Origin: Stappia taiwanensis
GTDB lineage: Bacteria > Pseudomonadota > Alphaproteobacteria > Rhizobiales > Stappiaceae
DNA length: 64,000 nucleotides
Assembly: GCF_014635285.1 (NCBI RefSeq)
Contig: NZ_BMCR01000004.1
Location: forward strand, 124,001 to 188,000
Direction: 5' to 3'
Part shown: positions 32,926 to 58,207 of the stretch, piece after piece
How the letters are laid out: each line of letters begins with the position of its first letter
Position numbering within the stretch: position 1 is the first letter of the stretch
Translations under genes and position numbers: made by a program
The notes under the pieces: generated by a model
What the model saw: only the letters and a program-made list of their open reading frames with translations
Database searches by the model: none
Told to the model about the DNA's origin: nothing

Positions 32926-32939
32926 TTGATCTTGCTCAA
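32926..32939. promoter_or_regulatory. FNR/FixK-type box (TTGAT-N4-CTCAA)
   Basis: TTGATCTTGCTCAA differs from the consensus TTGAT-N4-ATCAA at one position. It lies 57 bases upstream of the ydcH start and 51 bases upstream of the divergent g12 start. That is a suitable place for an oxygen-responsive CRP/FNR-family regulator to act on either gene. Confidence 0.45.
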
Positions 32940-32995
32940 GGAAACGGGTAGCGGGAACGCGCAATGTCGCATCACCAACGGAGGTCATTACCCGA

Positions 32996-33235: not shown

Positions 33236-33273
33236 AACGCCGGTGCCTGAGCCCCTCCTGTTCAGGCCCGACG

Positions 33274-33864: not shown

Positions 33865-34118
33865 TGCCCATCCTCCTCTTTCCGCGCCCGCTCATCGGGA
33901 TAGTGCCGCATCAGGCGTTCGAAACTCGCCCGGTTGGGCGCGCCCGTCCGTATCGCCGCCGAGGCGCCAGCCCCCAGCGCCAGCGCCACCTCGCGCGGGG
34001 TGGCCCGCCAGAACGCCTCCGGTGGCCAGTTGAGCCCGCCGAGACAGAGCCGCATCACATCGTTCCAGGGAAAGGCCGCGACCGGTGTCCCGCCCGCGGC
34101 CCGGAAGGGTTTTCGCAA
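33861..34118 (-). CDS. GTA tail assembly chaperone, rcc01693-like (g10.1)
   Basis: 85 residues from a TTG at 34118 (GGAG four bases upstream), or a shorter product. FPWNDVMRLCLGGLNWPPEAFWRATPREVALAL is the hallmark of the small rcc01693/TIGR02216 GTA protein. It overlaps g10 by 64 bases in the -1 frame and g11 by 4 bases. In tailed phages the equivalent pair is often made by frameshifting; no canonical slippery heptamer was found, only GAAAAC in the overlap. The TTG start therefore remains the simpler reading. Confidence 0.82.
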   Translation of the reverse strand: MRKPFRAAGGTPVAAFPWNDVMRLCLGGLNWPPEAFWRATPREVALALGAGASAAIRTGAPNRASFERLMRHYPDERARKEEDGQ

Positions 34119-34489
34119 GGCTCCGGGTCCGCCGCCTCCTGCTGCCCTGCGGCCTCAGTGGGCGCGCCGGTTTCCGCATCCGGTCCAGCGAAGGTCACCT
34201 GAAGCAGGGTCGAGACAAGGCCGGCCAGCGCCTGCACGCCGCCCTCCGCTCGCATTTGCCCCACCTCATCGTCGGTGACGTCATGCCCCGCGCCGCGCAG
34301 GCCCGCGCCGATGATCCGGCTGAGATCGCGCGCCGACAGCCGGCCGGAGCCGAACCGGTCGGCGAGCGCGGCAAGGTCCTCCACCCCGAAGGCGTCCTCC
34401 AGCTCGGCCAGCGCGCCGAGGGTGAGAACCAGGGTCCAGCGGCGTCCGTCGAGCGTTGCGCTCACTTCGCCGCGATGACGGTTGGCCAT
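34055..34489 (-). CDS. GTA tail chaperone family protein gp10 (g10)
   Basis: 144 residues. MANRHRGEVSATLDGRRWTLVLTLGALAELEDAFGVEDLAALADRF is the GTA_gp10 signature. The C-terminal tail (GAPTEAAGQQEAADPEP...) is disordered and is where the reading frame overlaps g10.1 for 64 bases. Helps assemble the tail around the tape-measure protein. Four bases downstream of g9. Confidence 0.92.
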   Translation of the reverse strand: MANRHRGEVSATLDGRRWTLVLTLGALAELEDAFGVEDLAALADRFGSGRLSARDLSRIIGAGLRGAGHDVTDDEVGQMRAEGGVQALAGLVSTLLQVTFAGPDAETGAPTEAAGQQEAADPEPCENPSGPRAGHRSRPFPGTM

Positions 34490-34492
34490 GGC

Positions 34493-34906
34493 TCAGCTCC
34501 CGGTGAAGGTCAGGGCGCCGGCGGATTCCAGCGCGATGTCATAGGTCACTTCGCCATCGTGATCGCCGGCGTAGTCCAGCGTGACGATCTGGAACGGCCC
34601 GGCGATGGTGCCGAAGTCGGGGATCACCACCTGCCAGTCACGGATCAGCCCGTCGAAGAAGAGGCCCCGCACGCTGGCGTCCGCCGCGCTGTCGCGAAAG
34701 ATCCCCGCGCCGGAGATGCTGGCGCTGCGGGTGCCGGCACCGGCCAGCAGCTCGCGCCAGCGCCCGGCGCTGTCCGCATCGGTGATATCGACGCTCGCCG
34801 CGTTGAGGGCGATGCGCCGGGCGCGCAAACCCGCGACGGTGACGAACCCGCCGATCCCGTCGCTGTCGCATTTCAACAACAAGTCCTTGCCTGCCTGGGC
34901 AGCCAT
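34493..34906 (-). CDS. GTA major tail tube protein (g9, TP901-1 type)
   Basis: 137 residues of beta-rich tail-tube protein. It opens MAAQAGKDLLLKCD and contains TVAGLRARRIALNAASVDITDADSAGRWRELL and VTYDIALESAGALTF. These are the conserved parts of the TP901-1 type phage/GTA major tail protein. It polymerises into the tail tube. Separated from g8 by 49 bases. Confidence 0.94.
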   Translation of the reverse strand: MAAQAGKDLLLKCDSDGIGGFVTVAGLRARRIALNAASVDITDADSAGRWRELLAGAGTRSASISGAGIFRDSAADASVRGLFFDGLIRDWQVVIPDFGTIAGPFQIVTLDYAGDHDGEVTYDIALESAGALTFTGS

Positions 34907-34955
34907 GAGACACTCCCTCGGTTTGTGATGGTGAGGTTGGGTGCCGCCGCGCCGG

Positions 34956-35363
34956 TCAGGCGAGCGGTTCGGTGACGATCCGCACGCTCAGCCGGCCGCG
35001 CCAGGTACGCCCGTTGCGCAGCCGCTCGCTGCGCGACACCGGATCGGCGATATGGATCAGCCGGTGACCGACAAGATGCGCCGCCAGCGTCGGCAGGGCG
35101 GCCTCAATCGCATCGAGGATCGCCGCCACCTCGCCGCGCGCCGGCCGGCGCGACAGCACGTGAATGTCGACCGCATGGCGCTCGCCCTCGCCGCGCTCCG
35201 CCGTCAGCAGCCGGGTTTCCACCGCTCCCAGTTCGACGAAGGGATGGGGACAGCCGCGCGGCGCGCCGTCATGGATGCGCGGCCCGCCAATGAGGGCCAG
35301 CAGCGCCGGATCGGCGGCCAGACCTGCAACGATGGCCCCGCGCAGGGCCGCTTGTCCGCTCAT
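34956..35363 (-). CDS. GTA tail terminator/completion protein, DUF3168 (g8)
   Basis: 135 residues, DUF3168. The ATG at 35363 overlaps the g7 stop by 4 bases, which fixes the start; the open frame runs further upstream but is not coding there. Segments LRGAIVAGLAADPALLALIGGPRIHDGAP, HPFVELGAVETR and HAVDIHVLSRR are typical. It caps the tail at the head-tail joint. Confidence 0.93.
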   Translation of the reverse strand: MSGQAALRGAIVAGLAADPALLALIGGPRIHDGAPRGCPHPFVELGAVETRLLTAERGEGERHAVDIHVLSRRPARGEVAAILDAIEAALPTLAAHLVGHRLIHIADPVSRSERLRNGRTWRGRLSVRIVTEPLA

Positions 35364-35686
35364 CGGCCGTCCTCCTCGACAAGGCAGGTGATGTAGCCTG
35401 CGCGCCGGTCGCTGTCGTCGACTGCCAGGATGCGGAACACCCGCGCGTCCTCCACCAGCCGCCAACCGCCGGTGATGCGCCCATCGGCACGCAGCCGCGC
35501 CCGGTGGGTGGCGATGCCGTCGAGCCGCTCCGCCTGCCAGCGCTCGGCAAGGCTGGCCGGCGCCAGCGCAACGAACACAGGTCCCATGTCGGCGAAGACG
35601 AGTTCCGCCTCGCCATCCGCCGCCTCGATCCGGTCCGGCCGCTCCAACCGCATTGCCCGGTCGAGCGCCCCGATCCGCCCGCTCAC
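35360..35686 (-). CDS. GTA head-tail adaptor (g7)
   Basis: 108 residues. The GTG at 35686 is chosen because it overlaps the g6 stop (GTGA) and has GGAG 8 bases upstream; the longer open frame is non-coding at its start. IGALDRAMRLERPDRI at the N-terminus and VFRILAVDDSDRRAGYITCLVEE at the C-terminus match phage head-tail joining/adaptor proteins. Confidence 0.9.
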   Translation of the reverse strand: MSGRIGALDRAMRLERPDRIEAADGEAELVFADMGPVFVALAPASLAERWQAERLDGIATHRARLRADGRITGGWRLVEDARVFRILAVDDSDRRAGYITCLVEEDGR

Positions 35687-36252
35687 AGTCGCAAGCTCCG
35701 GTAGCGGCCCAGCAGCGCGTCGAGCCCGGCGGGAACGGCGGCCATCGCCGTTTCCACCCCAAGCGCGCGATGCTCGAACCAATGGGCGGTCAGAAGCAGC
35801 ACCGCCTGCACCAGCACCGGCGGAACCGCGCTGGCATCCGCGCCATAGCCGGCGGTAAAATCCACCTCGATGCCGTTGAACCCGTCGAGCGGGCCCGGCG
35901 CACCGGCGGCCACCTTGAGACGCGGCGCGCCCGAGGCGCCGTCAAGGCGCAAGGACGCGGGCGCCACCGCGACCGGGGCCCCGTCGCCGGCGAACACCAA
36001 AACGCTTTCCACCGAGGCGACCGGCGCCACCGGCAGGTAAATGACCCGGCCCGGCGGCCAGTCGTCCAGATAGTAGCGCCAGCCCTGGGTGATCAGCGCC
36101 CGGCGGGTCACGCTTTCCACATGCGCCCTTGCCGTGCGGATCAGCCGGGCGATCAGCCCGTCTTCCGCCGTCGAGGTCAGCCGCAGGTGCTGGCGCGCCT
36201 CCTCCACGCTCACCGGCTCGGCGGCCGGCTGCGTCGTCACGATCGCGGTCAT
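35683..36252 (-). CDS. GTA head-tail connector, phage gp6/phiE125 gp8-like (g6)
   Basis: 189 residues. The ATG at 36252 follows AAAGGA by 6 bases. PVSVEEARQHLRLTSTAEDGLIARLIRTARAHVESVTRRALITQ is the conserved helical N-terminal part of the head-tail connector family; a beta-rich middle (VDFTAGYGADASAVPPVL) follows. Sits between capsid (g5) and adaptor (g7). Confidence 0.93.
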   Translation of the reverse strand: MTAIVTTQPAAEPVSVEEARQHLRLTSTAEDGLIARLIRTARAHVESVTRRALITQGWRYYLDDWPPGRVIYLPVAPVASVESVLVFAGDGAPVAVAPASLRLDGASGAPRLKVAAGAPGPLDGFNGIEVDFTAGYGADASAVPPVLVQAVLLLTAHWFEHRALGVETAMAAVPAGLDALLGRYRSLRL

Positions 36253-36339
36253 GTCGGTCCTTTCCCCGCAAGGATCTGGGATCCGCCGCACGCGGGGGCG
36301 CGCACGGCGGATCGACCTCGTTCCGGTTCGGCTGAGCGA

Positions 36340-37632
36340 TCAGGCGGAGAAGGTCAGCAGCTTGATGGCGTCGAAATCCTGAACGCCGCCGCCGACCCGC
36401 TTGGTGGTGTAGAACAGCACGTAGGGCTTGGCCGAATAGGGATCGCGCAGGATGCGCACCCCCGTGCGGTCGACCACCAGATAGCCGCGCCGGAAGTCGC
36501 CGAAGGCGATGGCCGGGCTGTCGGCGGCAATGTCCGGCATGTCCTCCGCCTCGATCAGCGGGAAGCTCATCAGCGTCGCCGGGGCGCCGACGCTTGCCGG
36601 CGGCTGCCAGAGGTAGTTGCCATCCGCATCCTTCATCTTGCGCACCGCCGCTTGGGTGCGCCGGTTCATGACGAAATGGCCGTTCTGGCGGTAGCCGCTC
36701 TTCAGCGCATAGACGAGGTCGATCAGCACATCGCCGGCATCGCTCGCCGGGAACGCACCGGCGGTACCGGTCGAAACGGTGCCCAGATTGCCCCAGCTCC
36801 AGGCGGCTTCAGCGACGCGCGGATAGTCGAGCAGCCCGCGCGGCTTGTTGACCCCATCGCCGGTGACGAAGGCGGTGCCTTCCTGCGCGGCGAAGGCGGC
36901 CTCCACCTCCTCGGCGATCCAGGCATCCACATCCACCGCCGCATCCTCCAGCAGCGACGGGGTCGCCGCCGGCATGGCGTAGAGCTCCATGGTCGGGAAC
37001 GAGAGCTCGGCGAGCACCGGGGCGTCGGTCTGCGGCCGGGCCGCCGTTTCCGCCACCCAGCCCGACTGCGGCCCGTTGGTGGAGAACGGCTTGCGGAAGA
37101 CGCTGGAGGACACCTGGCGAATGCCGGCAATGGCGCGGATCGGCGAAATCGCGGTCAGCGCCCGCAGGATGCCGCTTTCCGTCTCCTCCGGCACCAGATA
37201 GCCGCCATCGGGATCGGAGCCGGTGGACATCGCCTTGCGCTCCAGATCGCGCAGCCGCTCGTCCTGCCCCTTGCGCATATAGGCGTCGAAGGCCTCCTTG
37301 TGTTCCCGGCCGGCGGCATTGCCGACGCTGCCACGGCCCGTCTCACCGGCGCTGCGGCCCGGACGCGCCGCCTTCAGCGCCAGATCGTCGAGCCGGCGCT
37401 GCTGCCGGTCGAGCTGGCGGTCGATGCGCTCCAGTTTCTCCGCCGTCAGCACATCGGTGCTGCCGCGCGCCTCGATCTCCGACAGGCGCTCGTCGTTGAC
37501 CTCGCGAAAGGCGGTGAAGGCGGTGCGCATCTCGTCGAGCTCGTCGCGCGGCGACAGCCCGGTCTCGCGGCCGGTCGCCGCCTTGGTTTCGGTCAGCGGC
37601 AGGGCATGAGACATGTGCGAAGGATGGGTCAT
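36340..37632 (-). CDS. GTA major capsid protein, HK97 fold (g5)
   Basis: 430 residues. The ATG at 37632 overlaps the protease stop by 4 bases (ATGA). The N-terminal about 120 residues form a charged coiled-coil delta/scaffold domain (DERLSEIEARGSTDVLTAEKLERIDRQLDRQQRRLDDL), normally removed by g4. The capsid domain follows, with GGYLVPEETESGILRAL, FRKPFSTNG and GVNKPRGLLDYPRV. Length is normal. Confidence 0.96.
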   Translation of the reverse strand: MTHPSHMSHALPLTETKAATGRETGLSPRDELDEMRTAFTAFREVNDERLSEIEARGSTDVLTAEKLERIDRQLDRQQRRLDDLALKAARPGRSAGETGRGSVGNAAGREHKEAFDAYMRKGQDERLRDLERKAMSTGSDPDGGYLVPEETESGILRALTAISPIRAIAGIRQVSSSVFRKPFSTNGPQSGWVAETAARPQTDAPVLAELSFPTMELYAMPAATPSLLEDAAVDVDAWIAEEVEAAFAAQEGTAFVTGDGVNKPRGLLDYPRVAEAAWSWGNLGTVSTGTAGAFPASDAGDVLIDLVYALKSGYRQNGHFVMNRRTQAAVRKMKDADGNYLWQPPASVGAPATLMSFPLIEAEDMPDIAADSPAIAFGDFRRGYLVVDRTGVRILRDPYSAKPYVLFYTTKRVGGGVQDFDAIKLLTFSA

Positions 37633-38144
37633 GAGGGGCGAAGGCTCCTGTGCTTGAGGGTCGGCTGGGCAAGGGGCCCGGGCGCGGCGAGACGGGCGCC
37701 CGGGTGTAGCGGGAAGGTGACGAGCGACACCTCCCAAAGGTCGATGTCATGCAGGCGGCGGATGCCGGTATGGGGATCGCGCCGGGCGCTTCTGGCGCGA
37801 AAGCCGATGGACAGCCCGTCGAGCGCACCAGCGGCAATCAGCACCGCCGCCTCCCGGCCAGTGGCGGTTCCGGTCAGAAGCCGCCCCTTGACGAACAGGC
37901 CGGTGCGGTCCTCGCGCATCTCCTCGAAGACGCCGATCGGCCGGGCCGGATCGTGCTGCCAGAGAAAGCGGATACCGGCCGGGCCGCGCTCGCGCAGGCT
38001 GCGGTGGAAGGCGCCGCGCATCACCAGATCGCCGGCATCGTCGAGGCTGCCGAACAGGCTGGCATAGCCGCTGACGACCGCGGTCGGCGGATGCACCGTC
38101 GGTGGGTGTGCCGGGTCCGGTCCAGCCAGGGGCGCGCCGCTCAC
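37629..38144 (-). CDS. GTA prohead protease, HK97 family (g4)
   Basis: 171 residues from a GTG at 38144 that overlaps the stop of the small ORF upstream (GTGA). SGYASLFGSLDDAGDLVMRGAF, FLWQHDPARPIGVF (His-containing), GALDGLSIGFRA (Ser) and DLWEVSLVTFPLHPGARL are the conserved segments of U35-type prohead proteases. It trims the capsid N-terminal domain during assembly. Confidence 0.94.
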   Translation of the reverse strand: MSGAPLAGPDPAHPPTVHPPTAVVSGYASLFGSLDDAGDLVMRGAFHRSLRERGPAGIRFLWQHDPARPIGVFEEMREDRTGLFVKGRLLTGTATGREAAVLIAAGALDGLSIGFRARSARRDPHTGIRRLHDIDLWEVSLVTFPLHPGARLAAPGPLAQPTLKHRSLRPS

Positions 38145-38272
38145 GCGCCCTGCCCGGCCTGCCGCGCCCGCCGCTGCAAGAGCCGGGTGAGCGCGACGGC
38201 GAAACGGGCAAAGACGGCGCGATGGCCGCGCGGGCGCGCGAGTCCGGTCGCAGCCGGTCGGTGATCGGCCAT
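38141..38272 (-). CDS. Small GTA-cluster ORF between g3.5 and g4, 43 aa
   Basis: A 43-residue basic peptide starting MADHRPAATGLARPRGHRAVFARF and ending LLQRRARQAGQGA. Translation is supported by GGGAG 7 bases before the ATG at 38272 and by a GTGA overlap of its stop with the g4 start. Without it, g4 would lack an obvious ribosome site. Not recognised; it may be a translational-coupling leader or a head-assembly peptide. Confidence 0.5.
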   Translation of the reverse strand: MADHRPAATGLARPRGHRAVFARFAVALTRLLQRRARQAGQGA

Positions 38273-38420
38273 GGTGGGTCTCCCTTCATGGTGGTCAGGT
38301 GGTGGGGGCGATCCTCGGGGCGGCAAAAGTTCAGGCCCGTCCGGGTTCGCAAACTGATTCAATTGCGGGGCAAACACGCTTGATCGTCAGGGGTTTGCAG
38401 CGTGTTCCCGATAAAGGGAT

Positions 38421-38621
38421 TCAGTCGTCGAAATCGCTGAACAGGCGGTTCAGCCGGGCAATCGCCTGGACGAAATCGTCAAAGCGGCGGTTGGAGCGGA
38501 TCATCTCCCGCACGGTCCAGACCAGAAGGCTGCTCACCGTGCCGGCCCAGAGGAACAGCACCAGATGGGCCAGATCCCCCCGGGCGCCGATCATCTGCGC
38601 CAGCGGCGTCAGCGTCTCCAT
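38421..38621 (-). CDS. GTA small membrane protein between portal and protease (g3.5-like)
   Basis: 66 residues from the ATG at 38621, which overlaps the portal stop (ATGA). One TM helix (HLVLFLWAGTVSSLLVWTV) is followed by a charged helix (IRSNRRFDDFVQAIARLNRLFSDFDD). Its place between g3 and g4 matches the RcGTA g3.5 head-formation gene; sequence identity was not checked. Confidence 0.72.
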   Translation of the reverse strand: METLTPLAQMIGARGDLAHLVLFLWAGTVSSLLVWTVREMIRSNRRFDDFVQAIARLNRLFSDFDD

Positions 38622-39856
38622 CACCCCGCCCCCGGGGTTGAGGTGTCGCCGCCGCCCTCGACGCTCCCCTCGGGAGGCAGATCGGGCGGCAGGTCGGCGC
38701 CATAGCCGACCGCCACCCGCTTTTCCGAAGCGCTGAGGAAATCCGCCGCGCCGACCCGGCGCCACAGCGCCTCGCGCTCGCTCGACAGGGCCTCGACCCG
38801 GTCCGCATCCGGCCTCAGCCGCAAACCCGTCCCCTCCGCCGGGCCGAGCCAGCGCGCCAGCGCCTCGGCCACCCGGCCGGCAAGCGGCAGCACGGTCTGG
38901 CGCCAGAAGGCGCGGTTGGCCTCCTGGAAATTGGCGTACGTGTTGTCGCCGGGGATGCCGAGCAGCATCGGCGGCACGCCAAAGGCGAGCGCGATCTCCC
39001 GCGCCGCCTGGTTCTTGGCGGCGATGAAATCCATGTCCCTCGGGGTAAAGCCCATCGGCTTCCAGTCGAGCCCGCCTTCCAAAAGCAGCGGCCGGCCGGC
39101 ATTGCGCGGCCCCTGATAGCCCTCCTCCAGCTCCTTCTTCAGCCGGTCGAACTGCTCGTCGGAGAGATTGCCCCCCTCCGCCCCGCCATAGACCAGCGCG
39201 CCGGAGGGCCTTGCCGCATTGTCGAGCAGCGCCTTGTTCCAGGCGCCGGCGGCGTTGTGCAGGTCAAGACTCACCTGCGCCGCCTCGATGGGGGCGAAGC
39301 CGTAGTGATCGTTGAGCGGATGAAACACCTTGAGATGCAGGACGGTGGGCCGGCCATCGGCCTCGCTGGGGCCAAGCCGCACCGTGCGCCCGGCCACCGA
39401 ATAGTCGAACGCCTCCGGCCAACCATCGCTGCCCAGCACCACCTTCACCCGGTCGGGCCGCAGGGTGTGGAGTTCGCGCGCCGCCCCGTCGATCAGCACC
39501 CGCTCCAGATAGGCGTTGCCGGCCACCAGCAGGTGGCCATACACCTCCTCCAGCAGCGCGGTGCCGGAGGCCATCGGGCTTGGCCGCGCCAGAAGGTCGA
39601 GCAGCGGATGCCGGTCGAGCTCCCGGTCCTCCTCATAGAGCACCAGCGGCACGCTGGCGGCGGCCTCGGAGATCATCCGCACCGCCCGGTGCACCACCGG
39701 ATTGCGCGCATAGCCCTCGCGGGCGAGCGCTGCATAATCGCGCGGCGTCCACACCGGCCGGCCGGCGGCATGGAAGGCCAGCAACGCCCCGGCGCGCGAG
39801 GCCTTGACCTCGCCGGGCGTATGCAAAAGTGATTCAAGCATGGATTTCAAGCCCAT
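38621..39856 (-). CDS. GTA portal protein, HK97 family (g3)
   Basis: 411 residues. RNPVVHRAVRMISEAAASVPLVLYEE, HPLLDLLARPSPMASGTALLEEVYGHLLVAGNAYLE and AFGVPPMLLGIPGDNTYANFQEANRAFWRQTVLPL are the classical portal segments. It forms the ring through which DNA enters and leaves the head. AAGGA lies 5 bases before the ATG. An 81-base gap separates it from the terminase stop. Confidence 0.96.
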   Translation of the reverse strand: MGLKSMLESLLHTPGEVKASRAGALLAFHAAGRPVWTPRDYAALAREGYARNPVVHRAVRMISEAAASVPLVLYEEDRELDRHPLLDLLARPSPMASGTALLEEVYGHLLVAGNAYLERVLIDGAARELHTLRPDRVKVVLGSDGWPEAFDYSVAGRTVRLGPSEADGRPTVLHLKVFHPLNDHYGFAPIEAAQVSLDLHNAAGAWNKALLDNAARPSGALVYGGAEGGNLSDEQFDRLKKELEEGYQGPRNAGRPLLLEGGLDWKPMGFTPRDMDFIAAKNQAAREIALAFGVPPMLLGIPGDNTYANFQEANRAFWRQTVLPLAGRVAEALARWLGPAEGTGLRLRPDADRVEALSSEREALWRRVGAADFLSASEKRVAVGYGADLPPDLPPEGSVEGGGDTSTPGAG

Positions 39857-39937
39857 GATATCCTTGGCCTTTCCCTTGAAATCTGAGAAACGGATTCAGT
39901 CGCTTGAGCGGCTGATTCAACGCCTTGCAAGAGTGGA

Positions 39938-41269
39938 TCAGATCCGACGCAGGCGGGGCATCGGCGTGTCCTTCAGCGCCAGTTCGCTGATGGCGTAGAC
40001 CAGCGCGTCGAGCCGGTCCGGCGAGCGGCCGCTGGACAGGCCGTCGCTGGTGAAATCGGTCATTTCGTCTTCCAGCGCCGGCAGGGCGCCCACGTGGCGC
40101 ACCCGCCCCTGTTCGTAGAGCAGCGCCACCGGTTCGGCCCTGAGCCACTTGCCGCGCCGGGCGCGCACCGCCCGCACCGGCACGGAAGGATCGACCCCGG
40201 CGATCATGCCGGTGACCATCTCGCCGCCCTGGTTGACCTCGGCGACGAGGCAATCGGCCTCCGCCTCGTGCCAGGCGCGCACCGCCGCCCGGGCCCAGGC
40301 GCCGGGGGTGGCGCGGGCAAGGCTGCGGTCGGCCAGCACATAGACGATGCCGGTGGCGGCGATGCCGGCGACGATCAGCCCGCAGGCATCGGAGTTGCGG
40401 CCCGAGGTCGCCGGCGGGTCGAGCGCGACCACCACCCGCACCAGCTCCGGCGCCTCCTCCACCCGGCAGGCTTCCAGCCCGTCGCGGCTCCACATGGCCC
40501 CTTCGCGCTGTTCCACCAGTTCGCCGTCGAGTTCCTGCCGCGCCAGCCGGGTGCCGGCGTAGCGCTTGCGGATGGCGGCGACGAAACCGGCGGCCAGATG
40601 AGCGGCATTGGCTTCCGTCGCCGCGCCCACCACCCGGGTGGCCGGGTCGGCGATGATCCGTTTCAGCAACGGTATCGGGCGCGGTGTGGTGGTGACGAGC
40701 TGGCGCGGGGATGCGCCAAGCCTCAGGCTGAATTGCAGCATGTCCCAGGTCTCCTGCGGGTGGCGCCACTTGGCGAGTTCATCGCACCAGGCAAGCGCGA
40801 ATTGGGGCCCGCGCAGCGCATCCGGGTCCTCGGAGGAGAACACCTGCGCCACCGCCCCGTTGGGCCATTCCAGACGCCGCCGCGAGGGTTGCCAGGTGGG
40901 CCGCTCGCCGGTCGGGTGCACCGCCAGCAGGCCGGACACCCCCTCGATCATCACCTCGCGCACATCGGCATGGGTTTCGCCGACAAGGGCGATGCGGCCG
41001 CCGTCCGGGTTCGCCCCGCGCCGGGCGCTGCCGACGGTCGCCCGCAGCCACTCGGCGCCGGCCCGGGTCTTGCCGGCACCGCGCCCGCCCATCAGCAGCC
41101 AGCAGCGCCAATCGCCCTGCGGCGGCAACTGATGGGGGTGGGCCCACAGCGCCCAGTCATGGCGCAGGAAGGTCAGCGCCTCCCGGTCAAGCCCGGCCAG
41201 AAACTCCGGCAGCGCGCCCCTGGCGGCACAGGCGATCAAGCCGGTCCGCAAGCTCCTGTCTGAGCGCAT
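39938..41269 (-). CDS. GTA terminase large subunit (g2)
   Basis: 443 residues. The ATPase domain has Walker A GGRGAGKT (61-68) and Walker B ending WCDE (D163, E164). The RNase-H-like nuclease has VVVALDPPATSG, VAEVNQGGEM and DRLDALVYAI, which supply the acidic residues. It packages host DNA into GTA heads. Overlaps g1 by 83 bases. No sign of inactivation. Confidence 0.96.
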   Translation of the reverse strand: MRSDRSLRTGLIACAARGALPEFLAGLDREALTFLRHDWALWAHPHQLPPQGDWRCWLLMGGRGAGKTRAGAEWLRATVGSARRGANPDGGRIALVGETHADVREVMIEGVSGLLAVHPTGERPTWQPSRRRLEWPNGAVAQVFSSEDPDALRGPQFALAWCDELAKWRHPQETWDMLQFSLRLGASPRQLVTTTPRPIPLLKRIIADPATRVVGAATEANAAHLAAGFVAAIRKRYAGTRLARQELDGELVEQREGAMWSRDGLEACRVEEAPELVRVVVALDPPATSGRNSDACGLIVAGIAATGIVYVLADRSLARATPGAWARAAVRAWHEAEADCLVAEVNQGGEMVTGMIAGVDPSVPVRAVRARRGKWLRAEPVALLYEQGRVRHVGALPALEDEMTDFTSDGLSSGRSPDRLDALVYAISELALKDTPMPRLRRI

Positions 41270-41861
41270 CCTCGTCCTTTCCGGATGGTTCCAGGTCCTT
41301 GATGCCGGCCCGCAGCTCGATCAGGATGTCGAGGGTCTTGGCGAGACTGCCGAGGGTGCGGGCATTGCGTTCCACATGACCGGCGGCCTCACCGCCCTTC
41401 AGCGCGGCACCGGCCGCCGCCTCGCCGCGAAGCTGGCTTTCCACCGCCGCGATCTGGATTTCGAACGCCCGGGTCAGCCGGGCAACCATGCGGGCAACAC
41501 CCCGGGTGTCCCCGGCCTCGATCAGGTCCCGCACCGCGCCGTGTCGCACCCAGCCATCGGCCCGGGCGCGGCGTGCCACCGTCGCCTGTGTCACCTCCAT
41601 CATCTCGGCGATGACCGCGACGTGGAGCTGGTCCTGTTCGAACAAGCGGCGGGCCGCCGCCCAGCCCTCGGCGGTCAGATGCACCGGCCGCTTGCGCCCC
41701 GGCGGCTTTCCTTTTGCCTGCGGGGTGGGCGGCGGCGGGTCAGACGGCTGCAGCCTCGATGCCGCTCCGGTCTTCGCTTCCGCTTCCCTGCCCCTGTCAG
41801 TCCTGCCCTCTCCGCCCCCGGGCTTCCGGCAAGGGCGGCCAGCGGCCTCTTCCTCAGCCAT
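41187..41861 (-). CDS. GTA small terminase-like protein (g1)
   Basis: 224 residues from the ATG at 41861, chosen for AGGGAG 5 bases upstream; in-frame ATGs at 41888 and 41936 have weaker sites. The N-terminus is disordered and charged. A helix-turn-helix segment (AVIAEMMEVTQATVARRARADGWVR) and a long helical oligomerisation region follow, as in phage TerS. First structural gene of the cluster. GTA TerS proteins are thought to have lost sequence-specific packaging, which cannot be tested here. Confidence 0.85.
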   Translation of the reverse strand: MAEEEAAGRPCRKPGGGEGRTDRGREAEAKTGAASRLQPSDPPPPTPQAKGKPPGRKRPVHLTAEGWAAARRLFEQDQLHVAVIAEMMEVTQATVARRARADGWVRHGAVRDLIEAGDTRGVARMVARLTRAFEIQIAAVESQLRGEAAAGAALKGGEAAGHVERNARTLGSLAKTLDILIELRAGIKDLEPSGKDEDALRQELADRLDRLCRQGRAAGVSGRA

Positions 41862-41936
41862 GCGCGCTCCCTCCGTTTCGGATTTCATGTCAGCATGCGC
41901 CCTGCCCGACCCGCCGTGCCGCTGGCGAACGGGCAC

Positions 41937-41964
41937 AAAAAAACGCGCCGGGCTGCGGCGCGTT
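41937..41964 (-). terminator. Intrinsic terminator T2 in the GTA leader
   Basis: Perfect 9-bp stem AACGCGCCG/CGGCGCGTT with a 5-base loop. In the minus direction it runs into seven consecutive T residues. It lies 76 bases upstream of the g1 start codon and in the direction of GTA transcription. Confidence 0.85.
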
Positions 41965-42026
41965 CGGGCAGGTCTCTGTCAGTGTCCTTGTCGGGCCTTT
42001 GCCCCTTTGCTCGCCGGATCGACATG

Positions 42027-42054
42027 AAAAAACCCGGGGTGCAACGCCCGGGTT
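42027..42054 (-). terminator. Intrinsic terminator T1 in the GTA leader
   Basis: 8-bp perfect stem AACCCGGG/CCCGGGTT with an 8-base loop, followed in the minus direction by six T residues. First of two tandem terminators between the GTA promoter and g1. The plus-strand side resembles a tRNA T-loop by chance only. Confidence 0.82.
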
Positions 42055-42156
42055 CGAAAAATCTGCTCTGAATGATCCGTTCCAGGCCGCGTCCACCGCG
42101 ACCAGCATCGGCGCCCTTAACACCGGCGCCGGACGCAATTCTTCGACCATGACCAA

Positions 42157-42185
42157 ACCCTAGCCGATCACCGTCACGCTGTCAA
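42157..42185 (-). promoter_or_regulatory. Sigma70-type promoter of the GTA cluster
   Basis: On the minus strand TTGACA (42185-42180) and TAGGGT (42162-42157) are separated by 17 bases, with AT-rich sequence (GAAAATATTC) directly upstream. Predicted start of transcription near 42150. It is the only strong promoter seen between ycgN and g1. Confidence 0.72.
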
Positions 42186-42189
42186 GAAT

Positions 42190-42211
42190 ATTTTCCTAGG
42201 ATTTTTATCCT
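42190..42211. repeat. 22-bp direct repeat, left copy
   Basis: Identical to 42882-42903; central part CCTAGGATTTTTATCC. This copy sits 5 bases upstream of the GTA -35 box and contains a TAGG-N8-CCTA palindrome. Confidence 0.9.
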
Positions 42212-42212
42212 A
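42197..42212. promoter_or_regulatory. Palindrome TAGG-(A/T)8-CCTA upstream of the GTA promoter, candidate GafY-type operator
   Basis: Half sites TAGG (42197-42200) and CCTA (42209-42212) flank eight A/T bases. Its centre is about 54 bases before the predicted start of transcription, a usual activator position. The same arrangement occurs upstream of the DnaA-like/DUF6456 gene pair at 57162-57177. Confidence 0.55.
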
Positions 42213-42457
42213 TAATATTTCAGTCATCAGCCATGATGGTTGGCCTCATCACTAATAGTGCTCCCCTCTCAACTTCCAGAACTCTTATCCACTCCGCCGC
42301 CCTCTCAAAAACAATAAATATTTTATCACAATAAACACATCTACGAGACTTGGGTTTTGGAGCTGATTAAACTCCTCCTACAGCCACCGTAACAGATTAC
42401 CCCCCCAAAAACCTGATCCTATATTTCAGGTATAAATCTATATTTAGATAGCCAACC

Positions 42458-42739
42458 TTATTCAGACGGACTTTCCGTATGACGGTTCTGATCGCGTTCA
42501 GCATCAGCTGGAACTGAGAACGATGCAATGACAGAAAAAAACACTGCAATTACAGAAAATACAATGCCAGCGCACACATAAGCCACACCCCGCCCCGCGT
42601 AAATGATAAAATTATACGCACCTCCTCTCACAACCCTATTCGAATAGGAGTCGTCATACATCAAATTTATGCCATAGAACGTAAAACCCAGCGCAACAAT
42701 TGCCGAGACAAAACCTATCGAGATCCAAAATCCCCTCAT
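42458..42739 (-). CDS. Hypothetical small membrane protein inside the AT-rich island
   Basis: 93 residues with two TM helices (FWISIGFVSAIVALGFTFYGI and YVCAGIVFSVIAVFFSVIASF) and a short charged tail ending HTESPSE. AAAGGA lies 7 bases before the ATG. Codon use is far more AT-rich than that of its neighbours, which indicates recent acquisition. I do not recognise the family. It may be cargo of the island. Confidence 0.7.
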   Translation of the reverse strand: MRGFWISIGFVSAIVALGFTFYGINLMYDDSYSNRVVRGGAYNFIIYAGRGVAYVCAGIVFSVIAVFFSVIASFSVPADAERDQNRHTESPSE

Positions 42740-42881
42740 ACAAAAATCCTTTACCTGAATATTAAATCTCGCCTCAACTTACATCGCTTGGACGATGATG
42801 TAGATACCACAATCGCTATCAGTAGACCTAGTTTTGGCGGAAACTGCAACTCAGAGCAGTCAACCGCATCACCCACCAGAG

Positions 42882-42903
42882 ATTTTCCTAGGATTTTTAT
42901 CCT
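42882..42903. repeat. 22-bp direct repeat, right copy, at the 3' end of the ycgN-type gene
   Basis: Identical to 42190-42211. It covers the last codon and TAA stop of the gene at 42897-43433, so that stop lies in the repeat. The left half of the palindrome is CAGG here instead of TAGG. Confidence 0.9.
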
Positions 42904-43433
42904 GACGCCTCGGAGGTGTCCTCCATCGGGTTCTCGCCCGGCCAGTCGGCGAGGAAATTCTCGTAGTCTTCCAGCGGGATCCCGTCTTCGGGGAACACCC
43001 GGCCGCGCACGGAAATGCCGGCGGCGTGGACGCTCTGCGGATCGCCCGAGACCAGCGGGTGCCACCAGTAGAGATCGCGCCCTTCGGCCATCAGCCGGTA
43101 GCCACAGGTCGGCGGCAGCCAGCTCAGGCCCGGCACGGTTTCCGGCGTCAGCGGCAGGCAGTCCGGCACCTTTTCCAGCCGGTTGTCGTAGTCGCGGCAG
43201 CGGCAGCTGCCCTCGTCGAACAGGGTGCAGCTCAGCGAGGTCCAGACGATTTCGCCGGTGTCCCAGTCCTCCAGCTTGTTGAGGCAGCAGCGGCCGCAGC
43301 CGTCGCACAGGGATTCCCATTCGCTGCCCGTGAGTTCGGCCAGGGTCTTGCGGCGCCAGAACGGCAGCGCCTCGGCGGACGGCTCCGCCGTCTTGCCGCC
43401 GGGAAGGGTCGTGCTGTCGTCGCTGGCGGTCAT
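42897..43433 (-). CDS. YcgN family cysteine-cluster protein (UPF0260)
   Basis: 178 residues from the ATG at 43433 (GAGAGGA 7 bases upstream). Cysteine motifs CDGCGRCC near the N-terminus, then [22 protein letters not shown] and PPTCGYRL, are characteristic of the CxxCxxCC zinc/iron-cluster family. [18 protein letters not shown] is the family signature. Function unknown. Its stop codon is inside the right direct repeat, so the element has not disrupted it. Diverges from the PBP gene. Confidence 0.92.
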
Positions 43434-43606
43434 GGTCTCGTCCTCTCCCGCCCTTGGTCCGTCGTCGGGCCTGTCGCTGGCGGGATTTCTTGAATCATGT
43501 GGTCGATCGGGATTAAAACAAGTCTTGTGATCGGTGCGGGGGAAGGTTGGCGCCGGCCCGCTCCTCATGCGCTTGCCTGAGCGCCATAGCAGAACGGACG
43601 GTCAAG

Positions 43607-45799
43607 GTGAACCAGAGATCCTTCGATCCCGAAGGAACCCCGCCAGAAGACAAGGGCACGCCGGAGGGCTCCGGCCGCCGGGGCTTGCGTGCGCGGCTCC
43701 TGTCGGTCGATGCCTTTGTCGACACCTTGCTGTGGCGCAGCTTCTCCGGCCTGCGGCTTGCCGGCGAGCGCTATTCCGCCTGGCTGCGCCGGTTCCGGGT
43801 GCGCGGTCCGGGGCGGATCGCCGCCGAGCTGGCGTCCGATGCGGTAACCTTCGGCGTGCTTGGGCTGATTCTCATGCTGGCCCTTGCCCAGGACGCCTTT
43901 CAGCAGACCGACCGGGCCGACTGGCGCACCACCGACGATTTCTCCGTGACCTTCCTCGACCGGTTCGGCAACGAGATCGGCCACCGGGGCATTCTGCTCA
44001 ACGACACGGTACCGCTGGCCGAGATTCCGGATCACCTGATCAAGGCGGCGCTGGCGACCGAGGACCGGCGCTTCTTCCATCATTTCGGCATCGATGTGGT
44101 CGGCACCTTCCGCGCCATGGTGGAAAACGTGCGGGCGCGCACCGTGGTTCAGGGTGGCTCCTCGCTGACCCAGCAGCTTGCCAAGAACCTGTTCCTGTCG
44201 AACGAGCGCACCTTGAAGCGCAAGATCAACGAGGCCTTCCTGGCGCTGTGGCTGGAAATGAACCTGACCAAGCGCGAGATCCTCAAGCTCTATCTCGACC
44301 GGGCCTACATGGGCGGGGGCACCTTTGGCGTGGCGGCGGCCTCGGAGTTCTATTTCGGCAAGAACGTGCGCGAGCTGAGCCTCGCCGAAGCGGCGATGCT
44401 GGCCGGCCTGTTCAAGGCGCCGAGCAAATACGCGCCCCATGTGGACCTGCCTGCCGCCCGCGCCCGCGCCAACGAGGTGCTGACCAACATGGTGCAGGCC
44501 GGCTTCATGACCGAGGGCCAGGTGATCGGCGCCCGGCGCAATCCGGCGGTGGCGATCGACCGCAGCGACCACCGCTCGCCCGACCATTTCCTCGACTACG
44601 CCTTCGAACAGCTCAAGGAGCTGGCCCGGACCCGGCCGGACCTGACCCGCGACCGCATCCTGACCGTGCGCACCTCGCTCGACCCGGGCCTGCAGCGGCA
44701 GGCGGAACGGGCGATCCTGTCCAGCCTGCGCCAGCATGGCCAGCGCTACCGGGTAGAGGAAGCTGCGGTGGCCGTGGTGGTGCCGGAGACCGGCGCGGTG
44801 CGGGCGATGGTCGGCGGCAAGGACTATGGCGCCAGCCAGTTCAACCGCGCCGCCGACGCGCTGCGCCAGCCCGGCTCCGCGTTCAAACCCTTCGTCTATA
44901 TTGCCGCCTTCCTGAACGGCTATTCGCCGAAATCGGTGGTGCCGGACGCGCCGATCTCCATCGGCGGCTGGAGCCCGCGCAACTATTCGCGCGGTTATGC
45001 CGGTGCGGTGACCTTGAAGACCGCGCTGACCAAGTCGATCAACACCATTCCGGTGCGGCTGGCCCAGGCCATCGGCCGCGACAAGATCGTCGAGGCGGCC
45101 CATGCCATGGGCATTACCAGCGAACTCAAGATCACCCGCGCCCTGCCCCTTGGCGTCGCCGAGGTGCGGATCATCGATATGAGCGCGGCCTATGCCTCCT
45201 TCGCCACTGGCGGCTACAAGGTGACGCCGACGGCGATCCTGGAAATCAAGAACTCCTCCGGCGCGACCATTTACGAGACCGCCGCCGGACGCGGTCCGCG
45301 CCAGCGGGTGATGCCGGAGGAAAAGGCGGCGGAGATGAACGAGGTGCTGGTCAATGTGGTGGAGCGCGGCACCGGCCGGCGCGCCCGCATCGACGGGGTC
45401 ACCGCCGCCGGCAAGACCGGCACCACCCAGGCCTATCGCGACGGTTGGTTCGTCGGCTACACCGGCAATTATGCTGCCGCCGTCTGGTTCGGCAACGACG
45501 ATTTCAGCTCCACCGGCCGGATGACCGGCGGCAGCCTGCCAGCGATGACCTGGCAGTCGATCATGGAATACGCCCATCAGGGCGTCGAGCTGAAGCCGCT
45601 GCCCGGCGTCGACCGGCCGCCGCACTCGGCTGAGGAACAGCTGCTCGCCGGCGACGGCACCCAGGGCGCCGGCCGCCCCCGGCTCCTGCGCGAACAGTCG
45701 ATCTCGGTGCTGAAGGACATCGGCGCCCGGCTCGATGCCATCGGCAAACGCGCCGAGGCCCCGACGGCGACGGCTGGCGAAGGACCGGTATCCCAGTGA
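43607..45799 (+). CDS. Penicillin-binding protein 1A (bifunctional transglycosylase/transpeptidase)
   Basis: About 730 residues. A cytoplasmic N-terminus and one TM (FGVLGLILMLALAQ) precede the GT51 transglycosylase, with catalytic E152 in EDRRFFHHFG and GGSSLTQQLAKNL. The transpeptidase domain has S424 in PGSAFKPF, TKSINT and KTGTT (K603). It polymerises and cross-links peptidoglycan in the periplasm. The start is uncertain: GTG 43607 is preferred, TTG 43547 is open but its ribosome site is too close. Its stop overlaps the next gene (GTGA). Confidence 0.93.
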   Translation: MNQRSFDPEGTPPEDKGTPEGSGRRGLRARLLSVDAFVDTLLWRSFSGLRLAGERYSAWLRRFRVRGPGRIAAELASDAVTFGVLGLILMLALAQDAFQQTDRADWRTTDDFSVTFLDRFGNEIGHRGILLNDTVPLAEIPDHLIKAALATEDRRFFHHFGIDVVGTFRAMVENVRARTVVQGGSSLTQQLAKNLFLSNERTLKRKINEAFLALWLEMNLTKREILKLYLDRAYMGGGTFGVAAASEFYFGKNVRELSLAEAAMLAGLFKAPSKYAPHVDLPAARARANEVLTNMVQAGFMTEGQVIGARRNPAVAIDRSDHRSPDHFLDYAFEQLKELARTRPDLTRDRILTVRTSLDPGLQRQAERAILSSLRQHGQRYRVEEAAVAVVVPETGAVRAMVGGKDYGASQFNRAADALRQPGSAFKPFVYIAAFLNGYSPKSVVPDAPISIGGWSPRNYSRGYAGAVTLKTALTKSINTIPVRLAQAIGRDKIVEAAHAMGITSELKITRALPLGVAEVRIIDMSAAYASFATGGYKVTPTAILEIKNSSGATIYETAAGRGPRQRVMPEEKAAEMNEVLVNVVERGTGRRARIDGVTAAGKTGTTQAYRDGWFVGYTGNYAAAVWFGNDDFSSTGRMTGGSLPAMTWQSIMEYAHQGVELKPLPGVDRPPHSAEEQLLAGDGTQGAGRPRLLREQSISVLKDIGARLDAIGKRAEAPTATAGEGPVSQ

Positions 45800-55445: not shown

Positions 55446-55886
55446 ATGGCGGCCATGACCACGACCCTCGACAGCATTCTCGACGATTTCGCCTTTCTCG
55501 ATGACTGGGAAGACCGCTACAAATACGTCATCGAACTGGGGCGGATGCTGCCGCCCTTCCCGGACGACGAACGCACCGAGGCCAACAAGATCCGCGGCTG
55601 CGTCTCCCAGGTGTGGCTGACCAAATCCGTGGAACGCGACCCGAGCGGCGCGCCGGTGCTGGTCTATGCCGGCGACAGCGATGCGCATATCGTCAAGGGA
55701 CTGGTGGCCATCGTGCTTGCCATGTTCTCCGGCCGCACGGCGCAGGAAATCGCCGAGACCGATGTCGACGCGATCTTCGCGCAGATCGGCCTCAAGGAAC
55801 ACCTGACGCCGCAGCGCTCGAACGGCCTGAAATCCATGGTCGAATCGATCAAGGCGGACGCCCGGTCGGTGCTCGCCCAGGCCTGA
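55446..55886 (+). CDS. sufE: Cysteine desulfuration protein SufE
   Basis: 146 residues from ATG 55446 (ATG 55455 is possible). WEDRYKYVIELGRMLPPFPDDERTEANKIRGCVSQVWL contains the sulfur-accepting cysteine C52. SufE receives sulfur from SufS and passes it to the SUF scaffold for iron-sulfur cluster assembly. The other suf genes are not here. The longer open frame extending upstream is not coding. Confidence 0.94.
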   Translation: MAAMTTTLDSILDDFAFLDDWEDRYKYVIELGRMLPPFPDDERTEANKIRGCVSQVWLTKSVERDPSGAPVLVYAGDSDAHIVKGLVAIVLAMFSGRTAQEIAETDVDAIFAQIGLKEHLTPQRSNGLKSMVESIKADARSVLAQA

Positions 55887-55904: not shown

Positions 55905-56723
55905 CTACCGGCGACTGCCGAGCCCATAGTGCCGGGCCAGCCGGTCGAGGCCGAGGGCCAGAATGACCTTGGCCGAGCGCGCCGGCCAGCCGCGCTCCCG
56001 TTCGACCGCCTCCAGCCCCTTCAGCAGGCAACAGACGTCGACCAGCACGCCGGAGAGCTCCGGTCCGACAGCGTCAAGCGCCCGCTCCATCCGCTGCCGC
56101 GCCGCCATCACCGCGTCGGTCAATTCACCGATGCCGCCGCGCCGGGAGCCGCCGCCGGTCGCCCCCGTCGCCAGCGTTTGCCAGGCCGGGGCGGCCAGAC
56201 CCGGGGCAATCTGACCGAAGGTATGATCGGCCCGCAGCCGCTCGCCCGCCTCGAACTGCTCCTGGCTCAGAAAGGCCTTGCCGTTGCGGGTCCGCCGGGT
56301 GCGCAGCCAGGCAAGCGGGCTTTCCGCGTGATTGACGGTCATCACCTCCACCGTGCCGTCCCGCGCGCGATCCCGGCGCAGCCCACGCGCCTGATGCTGG
56401 GCGCGAAAGCCATCCTCCCCGGCAAGCGCCCGGCGCAGGCGCGCCCGGCCAAGATCCGTGAGCTCGATGGTGCCCGCTTCCGTCATCCGCAGCAACTGCC
56501 GCCGCAGCCCCTGCCCCAGGCTCGCGGCCGGCACGGTCAGCACCGGCGGCGCGCCGGTGCGCGCATCCGCCCGCCCGGCCGCGGCGCGCAGCCGCCAATC
56601 GCCATCGCCGGCACCGCTGCGGTCCACCACCACCCAGACGGAGGCCCGTGACAGGCGTTTCAGCAGGCGCATTAGTGCCCCGCCCTCCTCACTGAGACGC
56701 GCCGATACGGCCCGCCCGCTCAT
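55905..56723 (-). CDS. DUF6456 domain protein, GafZ-like
   Basis: 272 residues from ATG 56723, which overlaps the stop of the DnaA-like gene (ATGA). A winged-helix-like N-terminal part (LLRMTEAGTIELTDLGRARLRR) is followed by the DUF6456 core (NHAESPLAWLRTRR, GKAFLSQEQFEAGERLRADHTFGQ). From memory, this domain is that of GafZ in Caulobacter, described as a transcription anti-terminator needed for GTA expression, and of the C-terminal part of GafA in Rhodobacter. The pairing with a DnaA-domain-IV-like gene supports the same role here, but DUF6456 proteins are also widespread in Rhizobiales. Confidence 0.75.
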   Translation of the reverse strand: MSGRAVSARLSEEGGALMRLLKRLSRASVWVVVDRSGAGDGDWRLRAAAGRADARTGAPPVLTVPAASLGQGLRRQLLRMTEAGTIELTDLGRARLRRALAGEDGFRAQHQARGLRRDRARDGTVEVMTVNHAESPLAWLRTRRTRNGKAFLSQEQFEAGERLRADHTFGQIAPGLAAPAWQTLATGATGGGSRRGGIGELTDAVMAARQRMERALDAVGPELSGVLVDVCCLLKGLEAVERERGWPARSAKVILALGLDRLARHYGLGSRR

Positions 56724-57136
56724 CGCTGCCCCCCGGCCCGAACCGGACACAGCCGCACCAGCCGAAGCCCCGAAGCGATCGCCTCCTCCAGCGCGGAGAG
56801 CGTTGCCTCGAACTCCGGGTCGTCCCGCCGGTCCTCGATCACCCGGCACGCATGAGCGACCGTTGTCCGGTCGCGCCCGAACGTCTGCGCCACCGATGTC
56901 AACGTCCGCTCAAGAACCACATGATGGAGATACATCGACACCTGCCGTGCCAGCGCGGTGCGGGCCGGCCCCCGGCTGCGACGGTCGATGTCCTCCTGCG
57001 TCACCCCAAAGGCCGACATCACACAGGCGGTGACGATCAGCTCAGCCCCCCTGTGTTCCGCGCCCGCGCCCGAAAACGCCCGCTCTTCCTTGTGAAATTT
57101 CGCTGGCCCCTGCATCGGCTGCCCGTGAACAAGCAT
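56720..57136 (-). CDS. DnaA domain IV-like helix-turn-helix protein, GafY-like
   Basis: 138 residues. The start at ATG 57136 is preceded by GGACGGAG at 7-8 bases. The core, ARTALARQVSMYLHHVVLERTLTSVAQTFGRDRTTVAHACRVIEDRRDD, is the DnaA domain IV signature (FGRDRTTVAHA at 87-97), without the ATPase domains. It should bind DNA but not act as an initiator. With the overlapping DUF6456 gene it matches the GafY-GafZ arrangement that activates GTA genes in Caulobacter. The palindrome 26-41 bases upstream may allow self-regulation. Confidence 0.78.
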   Translation of the reverse strand: MLVHGQPMQGPAKFHKEERAFSGAGAEHRGAELIVTACVMSAFGVTQEDIDRRSRGPARTALARQVSMYLHHVVLERTLTSVAQTFGRDRTTVAHACRVIEDRRDDPEFEATLSALEEAIASGLRLVRLCPVRAGGQR

Positions 57137-57161
57137 GGCAATCTCCGTCCAAAAACAATCA

Positions 57162-57177
57162 TAGGTTTATATTCCTA
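57162..57177. promoter_or_regulatory. Palindrome TAGG-(A/T)8-CCTA upstream of the DnaA-like/DUF6456 pair
   Basis: Half sites TAGG (57162-57165) and CCTA (57174-57177) flank TTTATATT. Half sites, spacing and A/T-only spacer are the same as at the GTA promoter (42197-42212), and both continue as CCTATA on the right. It lies 26 bases from the start codon and may overlap the promoter. Confidence 0.55.
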
Positions 57178-57381
57178 TAGATTTACGAGATTTTTCCCGC
57201 GAGGGGATAAATCTTTCACGCCATGCACCAACTCCGCGCATCGCGCGGCGGGTTGTCCGCCCCTCCCCGGCGCCATGTCACACTGGCGACAGCCCGCCCC
57301 AGTCCCCCGCCGCAATCAGCGATGGGCCCGGACGGGCGGCAAGGGCCGGCGTCGCCCGCCCGGCGGCGTTGGAGGGAAACA

Positions 57382-57790: not shown

Positions 57791-58207
57791 TTACTTGGTG
57801 CGCTTGCGCTGCTGGCCGAGGCCCATCTTCTTGGCGAGCTCCGAACGCGCTGCCGCATAGTTCGGCGCGACCATCGGGTAGTCGCTGGCAAGGCCCCACT
57901 TCTCGCGGTACTCTTCCGGCGACATGTCGTAATGGGTCCGCAGGTGGCGCTTCAGCGACTTGAACTTCTTGCCGTCTTCCAGGCAGATGATGTAGTCGGG
58001 CGTCACCGATTTCTTGAGCGGCACAGCCGGCTTCAGCGGCTCCGGCTCAGGCTCGGCCACTGCATTGCTGGTGCGATGCAGGGCATTGTAAACTTCACTG
58101 ATCAGGCCTGCCAGATCGGTCGATGCCACCGTGTTGTTGGCGACATAGGCCGACACGATGTCGGCAGTCAAGTCAATGAGATTGGCGTCGACAGCCGTTT
58201 CCGTCAT
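57791..58207 (-). CDS. mucR: MucR/Ros family zinc-finger transcriptional regulator
   Basis: 138 residues. Ros/MucR regulator with the zinc-binding set C75, D78, H88, H92 ([19 protein letters not shown]); an aspartate replaces the second cysteine of Ros, as in many MucR proteins. [37 protein letters not shown] is the family C-terminus. It regulates exopolysaccharide, motility and cell-cycle genes in Rhizobiales by binding AT-rich DNA. The N-terminal part carries the oligomerisation region ([27 protein letters not shown]). Confidence 0.95.

Follow-up and report, generated by a model that had tools for sequence, protein, structure and literature searches.

GTA control is known in molecular detail, in the open-licence papers covered here, from two species; what follows about published work refers to the covered parts of the cited papers. 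In Rhodobacter capsulatus, the GTA activator GafA is one fused protein with an omega-binding middle, and its gene is under the control of CtrA and GtaR (PMC6363796, PMC9638019). In Caulobacter crescentus, the homologous domains are found in GafY and the DUF6456 protein GafZ, likewise GTA activators, which are encoded by adjacent genes (PMC9632790, PMC11150451). GafZ homologues have been counted at 759, of which 494 have an adjacent GafY (PMC9632790), and gafA homologues occur in 196 of 208 GTA-bearing genomes (PMC9765227). The C. crescentus gafYZ core promoter is bound at two GGAA-N4-TTCC repeats by RogA, described as a helix-turn-helix (HTH) protein with an S24-like domain without catalytic residues; in the parts of that report covered, RogA was found only at gafYZ and CCNA_02002 (PMC9632790). 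A palindrome between the -35 and -10 elements of the GTA promoter is needed for GafZ binding, the GTA terminator sits after the first gene (gtaT) and anti-termination by GafZ has been shown, while GafZ is reported to have no sequence or structural similarity to known antiterminators (PMC11150451).

Two further bodies of work bear on the locus described here. In Hyphomicrobiales a split gafA has been published, in which a DnaA-like gene is followed by a DUF6456 gene, with sufE downstream and mucR upstream; the parts of that paper covered do not describe the promoters or the GTA linkage presented below (PMC9638019). In phages lambda and 21, Q needs a binding element in the promoter spacer and a -10-like sequence (PMC6606751). 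Sigma70 pauses at 16-20 nt in Escherichia coli depend on a -10-like element placed 11 bp below the -10, and the same study names a 6-nt spacer and a YR+1Y start for sigma70-pause promoters; the elemental pause motif was not found at the sigma pauses in its covered parts (PMC7876045).

The window, that is the whole stretch of 64,000 nucleotides of Stappia taiwanensis DNA that was analysed, carries such a pair (Table 1). The initial annotation had claimed a gene for a DnaA-domain-IV-like HTH protein overlapping a DUF6456 gene by four bases, and a GafY/GafZ-like identity for the two. The first claim was confirmed and the second supported: Pfam recognised each family, and the ATGA at 56720-56723, read from the sequence, is common to the gafY stop and the gafZ start. 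Domains, gene order, overlap and the sufE and mucR neighbours fit the split GafA of Hyphomicrobiales as well as C. crescentus GafY/GafZ. The pair is thus very likely GafYZ, the tie to the Caulobacter and Rhodobacter proteins being drawn from Pfam family membership and the literature (PMC9638019, PMC9632790, PMC11150451, as covered).

DUF6456 occurs a single time in the 4.42-Mb genome and, among 14 control genomes, only in C. vibrioides. Residues 48-272 of GafZ are 94% identical to the protein of Stappia indica SN13-18. The AlphaFold model of GafZ (mean pLDDT 84) gave no significant match in a Foldseek comparison with the PDB, so that no solved relative was found at significance; the sigma -35-binding domain of 3hug reached a target TM of 0.58-0.65 at an E value of only about 2. 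Among phages, GafY matches near the start and GafZ near the end of phrog_31864 (316 positions), a fused GafA-like layout. Phage records matching GafZ numbered 27, of which 26 were Rhodobacter or Roseobacter phages, with weak matches in 19 such rows among those listed; the best match was a 103-kb unclassified record. Since split gafA has been described for Hyphomicrobiales, with the same sufE and mucR neighbours, and a separate pair for C. crescentus, the gafYZ pair itself is already known as a kind.

Table 1. Features of the gafYZ-GTA region of the window and the RogA-like gene of the same genome
Feature	Position	Strand	Remarks
sufE	55452-55886	+	conserved gafZ neighbour; Pfam SufE E 1.3e-46
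gafZ	55905-56723	-	272 aa; Pfam DUF6456 162.1 bits, E 1e-47
gafY	56720-57136	-	138 aa, DnaA-domain-IV-like HTH; Pfam Bac_DnaA_C 57.3 bits (above cut-off), E 1.7e-15
Inferred gafY -10, TATGAT	57158-57163	-	by reading
RogA-type operator candidate, gafY promoter	57162-57177	-	TAGGAATATAAACCTA
DnaA-box-like element	57203-57210	-	TTATCCCC; 34 nt upstream of the gafY operator candidate
mucR-type regulator gene	57791-58207	-	conserved gafY neighbour; Pfam ROS_MUCR E 6e-53
Two adjoining RogA-type operator candidates	42185-42212	-	abut the GTA -35; TAGGATAAAAATCCTA 42197-42212, TAGGAAAATATTCT 42185-42198
GTA promoter -35, TTGACA	42180-42185	-	
Imperfect palindrome CAGCG-TGA-CGGTG (4 of 5)	42169-42181	-	in and next to the -35/-10 spacer; candidate GafZ-binding element
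GTA promoter -10, TAGGGT	42157-42162	-	
-10-like hexamer CATGGT	42146-42151	-	11 bp downstream of the -10; candidate pause element; layout as in PMC7876045 (parts covered)
Conserved initially transcribed region	42131-42150	-	from the inferred start (A at 42150); 1.06 bits per column
Predicted leader terminator 1	42027-42055	-	hairpin and T run
Predicted leader terminator 2	41937-41965	-	hairpin and T run
GTA small terminase gene	41187-41861	-	first gene of the cluster; weak match to PHROG terminase small subunit, E 1.8e-4; precedes large terminase
RcGTA-type structural cluster	26915-41861	-	complete by domain content, including GTA_TIM
RogA-like gene (P0003)	G000:C3:652117-652815		elsewhere in the same genome

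An intact GTA cluster had also been placed about 14 kb from the pair. This held: the gafZ stop (55905) and the GTA -35 (42185) are 13.7 kb apart, and the head-tail cluster has small terminase, large terminase, portal, S78 prohead protease, capsid, gp6-like connector, gp17-like completion protein, tail tube, GTA gp10, TAC, tape-measure-like protein, DUF2460, gp84-like hub, NlpC/P60 and the GTA_TIM megatron, after which comes a phage lysozyme. The further claim that structural genes and a dedicated control pair are linked stood as to linkage, but linkage alone falls short of showing dedicated coupling, since many relatives share it and the GTA has ccmF as a linked gene as well.

We surveyed 61 genomes, S. 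taiwanensis included. DUF6456 was present in 52 and GTA_TIM in 51. Both occurred in 50, with the two families on the same contig in 32 (S. taiwanensis included), always 20-57 kb apart; they lay on different contigs, at an undecided distance, in 15. The linkage showed through the GTA promoter in two genomes (G007, G049), and in G053 at least 183 kb separate the two families. Of 142 genomes drawn from across the class, S. taiwanensis again included, 12 contained both families; S. taiwanensis aside, they shared a contig in 6 of 11, at 14-71 kb. On the other side of the GTA, ccmF was on the same contig as GTA_TIM in 44 of 51 genomes, within 22 kb in 43 of those. The ccm-GTA-gafYZ neighbourhood as a whole is conserved and old.

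It is quite likely that the gafYZ-GTA linkage is ordinary conserved synteny of no functional meaning. The linkage of ccmF is as tight, the genes are far apart in G053, and in Caulobacter, where the loci are CCNA_01111-01112 and CCNA_02861-02880 (PMC9632790, as covered), they are distant by locus numbers. Against this stand the 32 of 32 single-contig genomes with a separation of no more than 57 kb, the six further genomes of the class-wide draw, and a genome of another order (G186) in which the gafZ stop codon directly precedes the GTA promoter. Linkage as the main special point of the locus was rejected, given that ccmF is equally linked and relatives share the arrangement. In G186 the promoter, with its RogA-type box, begins directly after the gafZ stop codon (L141, 4016-4900), and no gafY was detectable by tblastn beside this gafZ. 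More than one GTA_TIM locus was seen in ten genomes (G008, G015, G016, G018, G020, G023, G025, G026, G028 and G035); the extra loci are probably further prophages or GTA-like elements.

The DNA upstream of the GTA genes in relatives contains an ungapped block, TAGGAAAAAAATCC-TTGACA-SCGTNACGSTG-N6-TAGGGT-N6-A, continuing as ATGGTCGNANAGNTGCGG. A strict pattern for this promoter had one match each in 24 of the 61 genomes (S. taiwanensis included), all of them with GTA_TIM, and the reversed pattern had none. In 21 of the 24 the match shares contig and strand with GTA_TIM and sits 12.0-16.5 kb upstream of it; the other three are on another contig. The strict pattern was absent from 27 of the 51 GTA_TIM-bearing genomes. 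A matrix built from 19 loci found the promoter at scores of 17.6-102 in nine more fetched genomes, of which three also belong to the 24, and never scored above 8 in the gafY loci scanned. All searches joined, the promoter was found in 32 of the 51 GTA_TIM-bearing genomes (G051 and G057 included); among the other 19, four were fetched, with the promoter not found, and for 15 the strict pattern was the sole search. No search found it in 12 fetched GTA loci from the order and the class, some of whose stretches may not reach the promoter. Within the order these were G055, G047, G042 and G058, the G047 stretch having only 510 nt before the large terminase and the G055 stretch no large-terminase match. 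Outside the order, where G186 alone yielded a promoter (by a box-plus-TTGAC search), none was found in G069, G117, G114, G123, G064, G102, G199 and G063.

In 21 dereplicated loci, the segments between -50 and +20, counted from the inferred start, held 0.9-1.9 bits per column; outside the conserved promoter the values were 0.10 upstream and 0.27, 0.11 and 0.05 downstream. For counts of boxes and leader features a set of 27 promoters was used, which leaves out G056 (17.6 bits), G057 and G186 (both located by other means), as well as G003, G007 and G032, whose promoter stretch was not fetched. Eight of the 27 were found by the matrix, which includes box, palindrome and first transcribed bases, and their features are therefore partly selected. 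DnaA boxes as a part of the GTA promoter were rejected, TTATCC-type sites being present in just 2 of 19.

No inverted repeat in the 220-nt alignment is stronger than the palindrome in the promoter spacer (consensus in relatives CASCG-N3-CGSTG), which has a mean of 4.38 of 5, although covariation between its arms was not significant (1032 of 5000 re-dealings reached the observed value). Its place between -35 and -10 is that of the C. crescentus GafZ element, from which it differs in sequence; the -35 itself is the consensus TTGACA in Stappia and degenerate in C. crescentus (PMC11150451, as covered). Downstream, the -10-like hexamer lies exactly 11 bp below the -10, its A and T being conserved at 1.9 bits, and CAT stands at the inferred transcription start. 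The promoter also fits the 6-nt spacer and, at the inferred start, the YR+1Y motif of sigma70-pause promoters, and three conserved bases (G, C and G) agree with the elemental pause signal G-10 Y-1 G+1 at +16. With its candidate spacer element, candidate pause sequence early in the transcript and predicted terminators downstream, the promoter resembles in layout pR' under lambda or 21 Q (PMC6606751, PMC7876045, as covered). Two differences are that the 21Q site is a direct repeat whereas the candidate site in Stappia is a palindrome, and that the Stappia pause element is a candidate named from sequence.

The box next to the GTA -35 recurs in the gafY promoter. It resembles the RogA repeat, exactly in some species (GGAA-AAAA-TTCC) and partially in the window, where the gafY box is half-perfect (GGAA-TATA-AACC). 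AGG-N8-CC was found at 21 of the 27 GTA promoters (25 with relaxed criteria) and in 33 of 40 gafY upstream stretches, compared with 87 of 1460 controls; GG-N8-CC with an AT-rich centre precedes 30 of 30 rogA loci (S. taiwanensis included), compared with 95 of 1460 controls. The gafY and rogA criteria are loose, and in L085 and L089 the gafY match overlaps TTATCCCC and not the aligned box; the controls include a few true sites, and the comparison is therefore conservative. The 40 gafY stretches were taken at the loci matched by tblastn, the window included, and the 30 rogA upstreams are those returned from 51 genomes with a match; that of G048 had a matrix score of only 5.2. In the S. taiwanensis genome, the pattern TAGGAWWAWAWWCCT, built from the two promoters that it matches perfectly (GTA and gafY), had six further matches with a single mismatch, and the reversed control had one match. 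Three of the six are additional readings on or close to the GTA and gafY sites, and a fourth is placed 78 nt ahead of a rogA-like gene. The remaining two, one next to a DnaJ-like gene and the other within a chemotaxis-like gene (by reading), look like chance and were rejected as targets.

The genome has two S24-domain genes, of which the higher-scoring is presumably lexA and the other is this rogA-like gene. The product of the latter, P0003, has a Peptidase_S24 match of 53 bits, a Cro/C1-type HTH below its cut-off and a match to the phage repressor family phrog_4 (E 9e-19). It carries GDGM at the S24 catalytic place, where we would expect GDSM, and we take it to be without catalytic residues, the state described for RogA. 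Relatives of rogA occur in 51 of the 61 genomes and in 47 of the 50 with both DUF6456 and GTA_TIM (G022 having a weak match only); among the eight genomes without DUF6456 and GTA_TIM, five are without rogA and three keep it.

A second element of the gafY upstream region, TTATCC[CA], was present in 28 of the 40 stretches compared with 38 of 1460 controls. It lies 31-41 nt upstream of the gafY box in 23 loci, at exactly 35 nt in 13 of these, and may serve GafY (autoregulation) or DnaA (a tie to replication). At the GTA promoter of the window, exact 22-nt direct repeats (42190-42211 and 42882-42903), both of which contain a RogA-type box, enclose an AT-rich segment of about 670 bp that includes a 93-aa ORF with no Pfam match. 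This segment looks like an insertion that duplicated the operator.

Could the AGGAA-N4-TTCCT box instead be a GafY site, where GafY would sit just upstream of the GTA -35 in the manner of a class II activator, touching sigma region 4, and would also autoregulate gafYZ? Half-sites such as TTATCCTA resemble, to our eye, a DnaA box, and the box centre near -43 from the inferred start is a usual position for an activator. GafY of C. crescentus binds the gafYZ and GTA promoters and contacts RpoD domains 3-4 (PMC11150451, as covered). We nevertheless regard a GafY site as unlikely. The box fits the Caulobacter RogA repeat (PMC9632790, as covered), is palindromic like cI-type operators, precedes every rogA locus tested and seems to lie within the core promoter of gafY, a position in which a bound activator would obstruct polymerase; moreover, about 20 binding regions are reported for Caulobacter GafY (PMC11150451, as covered), compared with two perfect boxes in the S. 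taiwanensis genome. Reading the box as a RogA operator, Stappia would differ from C. crescentus in having it on the GTA and rogA promoters also (PMC9632790, as covered).

The small terminase gene starts 289 nt downstream of the inferred GTA start, and both predicted terminators lie in between. Terminators were predicted from sequence in 21 of 27 leaders, compared with 2 of the 27 leaders in reverse complement and 12 of 108 stretches drawn at random from the same strand (Fisher, 2e-7 and 3e-11 for the two controls, values that overstate independence because the leader sequences are related). Six of the 27 leaders had no terminator by the criteria used. In Stappia the predicted terminators lie in the leader before the first gene, whereas that of C. 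crescentus comes after gtaT (PMC11150451, as covered). Measured in 25 loci, the distance from the -35 to the large terminase ranged from 0.6 to 5.0 kb, with a value of about 4.9 kb in G005, G008, G011 and G012. Four long opposite-strand ORFs separate the GTA promoter from the GTA genes at L070 7404-11810 (G008) and L074 7413-11890 (G011), the two loci in which ORFs were read, G005 and G012 being known from the same spacing; GTA transcription from the promoter would therefore cross about 4 kb of antisense DNA. Read by eye, these ORFs resemble ArsR, an ABC transporter and two phospholipid enzymes.

That GafZ might rather recruit polymerase through an omega contact, as R. capsulatus GafA, which binds omega (PMC9638019, as covered), may do, with the leader terminators serving an insulation or attenuation unrelated to GafZ, seems improbable to us: terminators can insulate against upstream transcription, but these lie downstream of the inferred GTA start and GTA transcripts themselves would therefore be cut, and anti-termination has been shown for Caulobacter GafZ (PMC11150451, as covered). 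A riboswitch is disfavoured, since leader conservation is low past +20 and no match there attains an Rfam gathering score (two sub-threshold matches fell in 41000-43700).

We consider it reasonably probable that gafYZ encodes the GTA's own activator and antiterminator, that RogA locks rogA, gafYZ and the GTA, and that GafZ defeats the leader terminators in the manner of lambda Q. From the observed genes, conserved DNA elements, their positions and statistics we infer the following circuit, down to each of its binding and regulatory steps. The RogA orthologue would bind AGGAA-N4-TTCCT-type operators and repress its own gene and gafYZ. It would also repress the GTA promoter directly, its operator abutting the -35, unlike the case reported for C. 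crescentus. Upon release of RogA, the GTA promoter with its consensus -35 would fire; polymerase would pause near +16 on the -10-like element and, by default, end at the intrinsic terminators of the leader. GafZ, loaded from the -35/-10 palindrome, would render polymerase terminator-resistant, allowing the 15-kb cluster to be transcribed, as Q does at pR'; the anti-termination logic is that of C. crescentus, proposed here by analogy (PMC11150451, as covered). GafY would boost gafYZ transcription and probably GTA transcription too.

The open-licence papers and passages covered contained no report of this GTA promoter or of the gafYZ-GTA linkage, nor did they describe leader terminators in Hyphomicrobiales or place RogA boxes on the GTA or rogA promoter. 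With the pair alone already known, the new part would be the control DNA, namely the cis-elements and a changed RogA wiring. The arrangement suggests a double lock on the GTA cluster: a repressor site that the switch genes have in common with it, and stop signals directly behind the promoter. More tentatively, and with somewhat less than even confidence, the Hyphomicrobiales GTA may be a true phage late operon with a strong promoter, a pause and a default short leader RNA, in which RogA would act on three promoters and a Q-like GafZ would carry polymerase across about 4 kb of antisense genes in some Stappia relatives. A defined promoter, present at most once per genome, allows base-level predictions of GafZ loading, sigma pausing, terminators and RogA operators across a GTA-rich order. 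It also opens the question whether domesticated phages have retained the late-promoter machinery of their ancestor.
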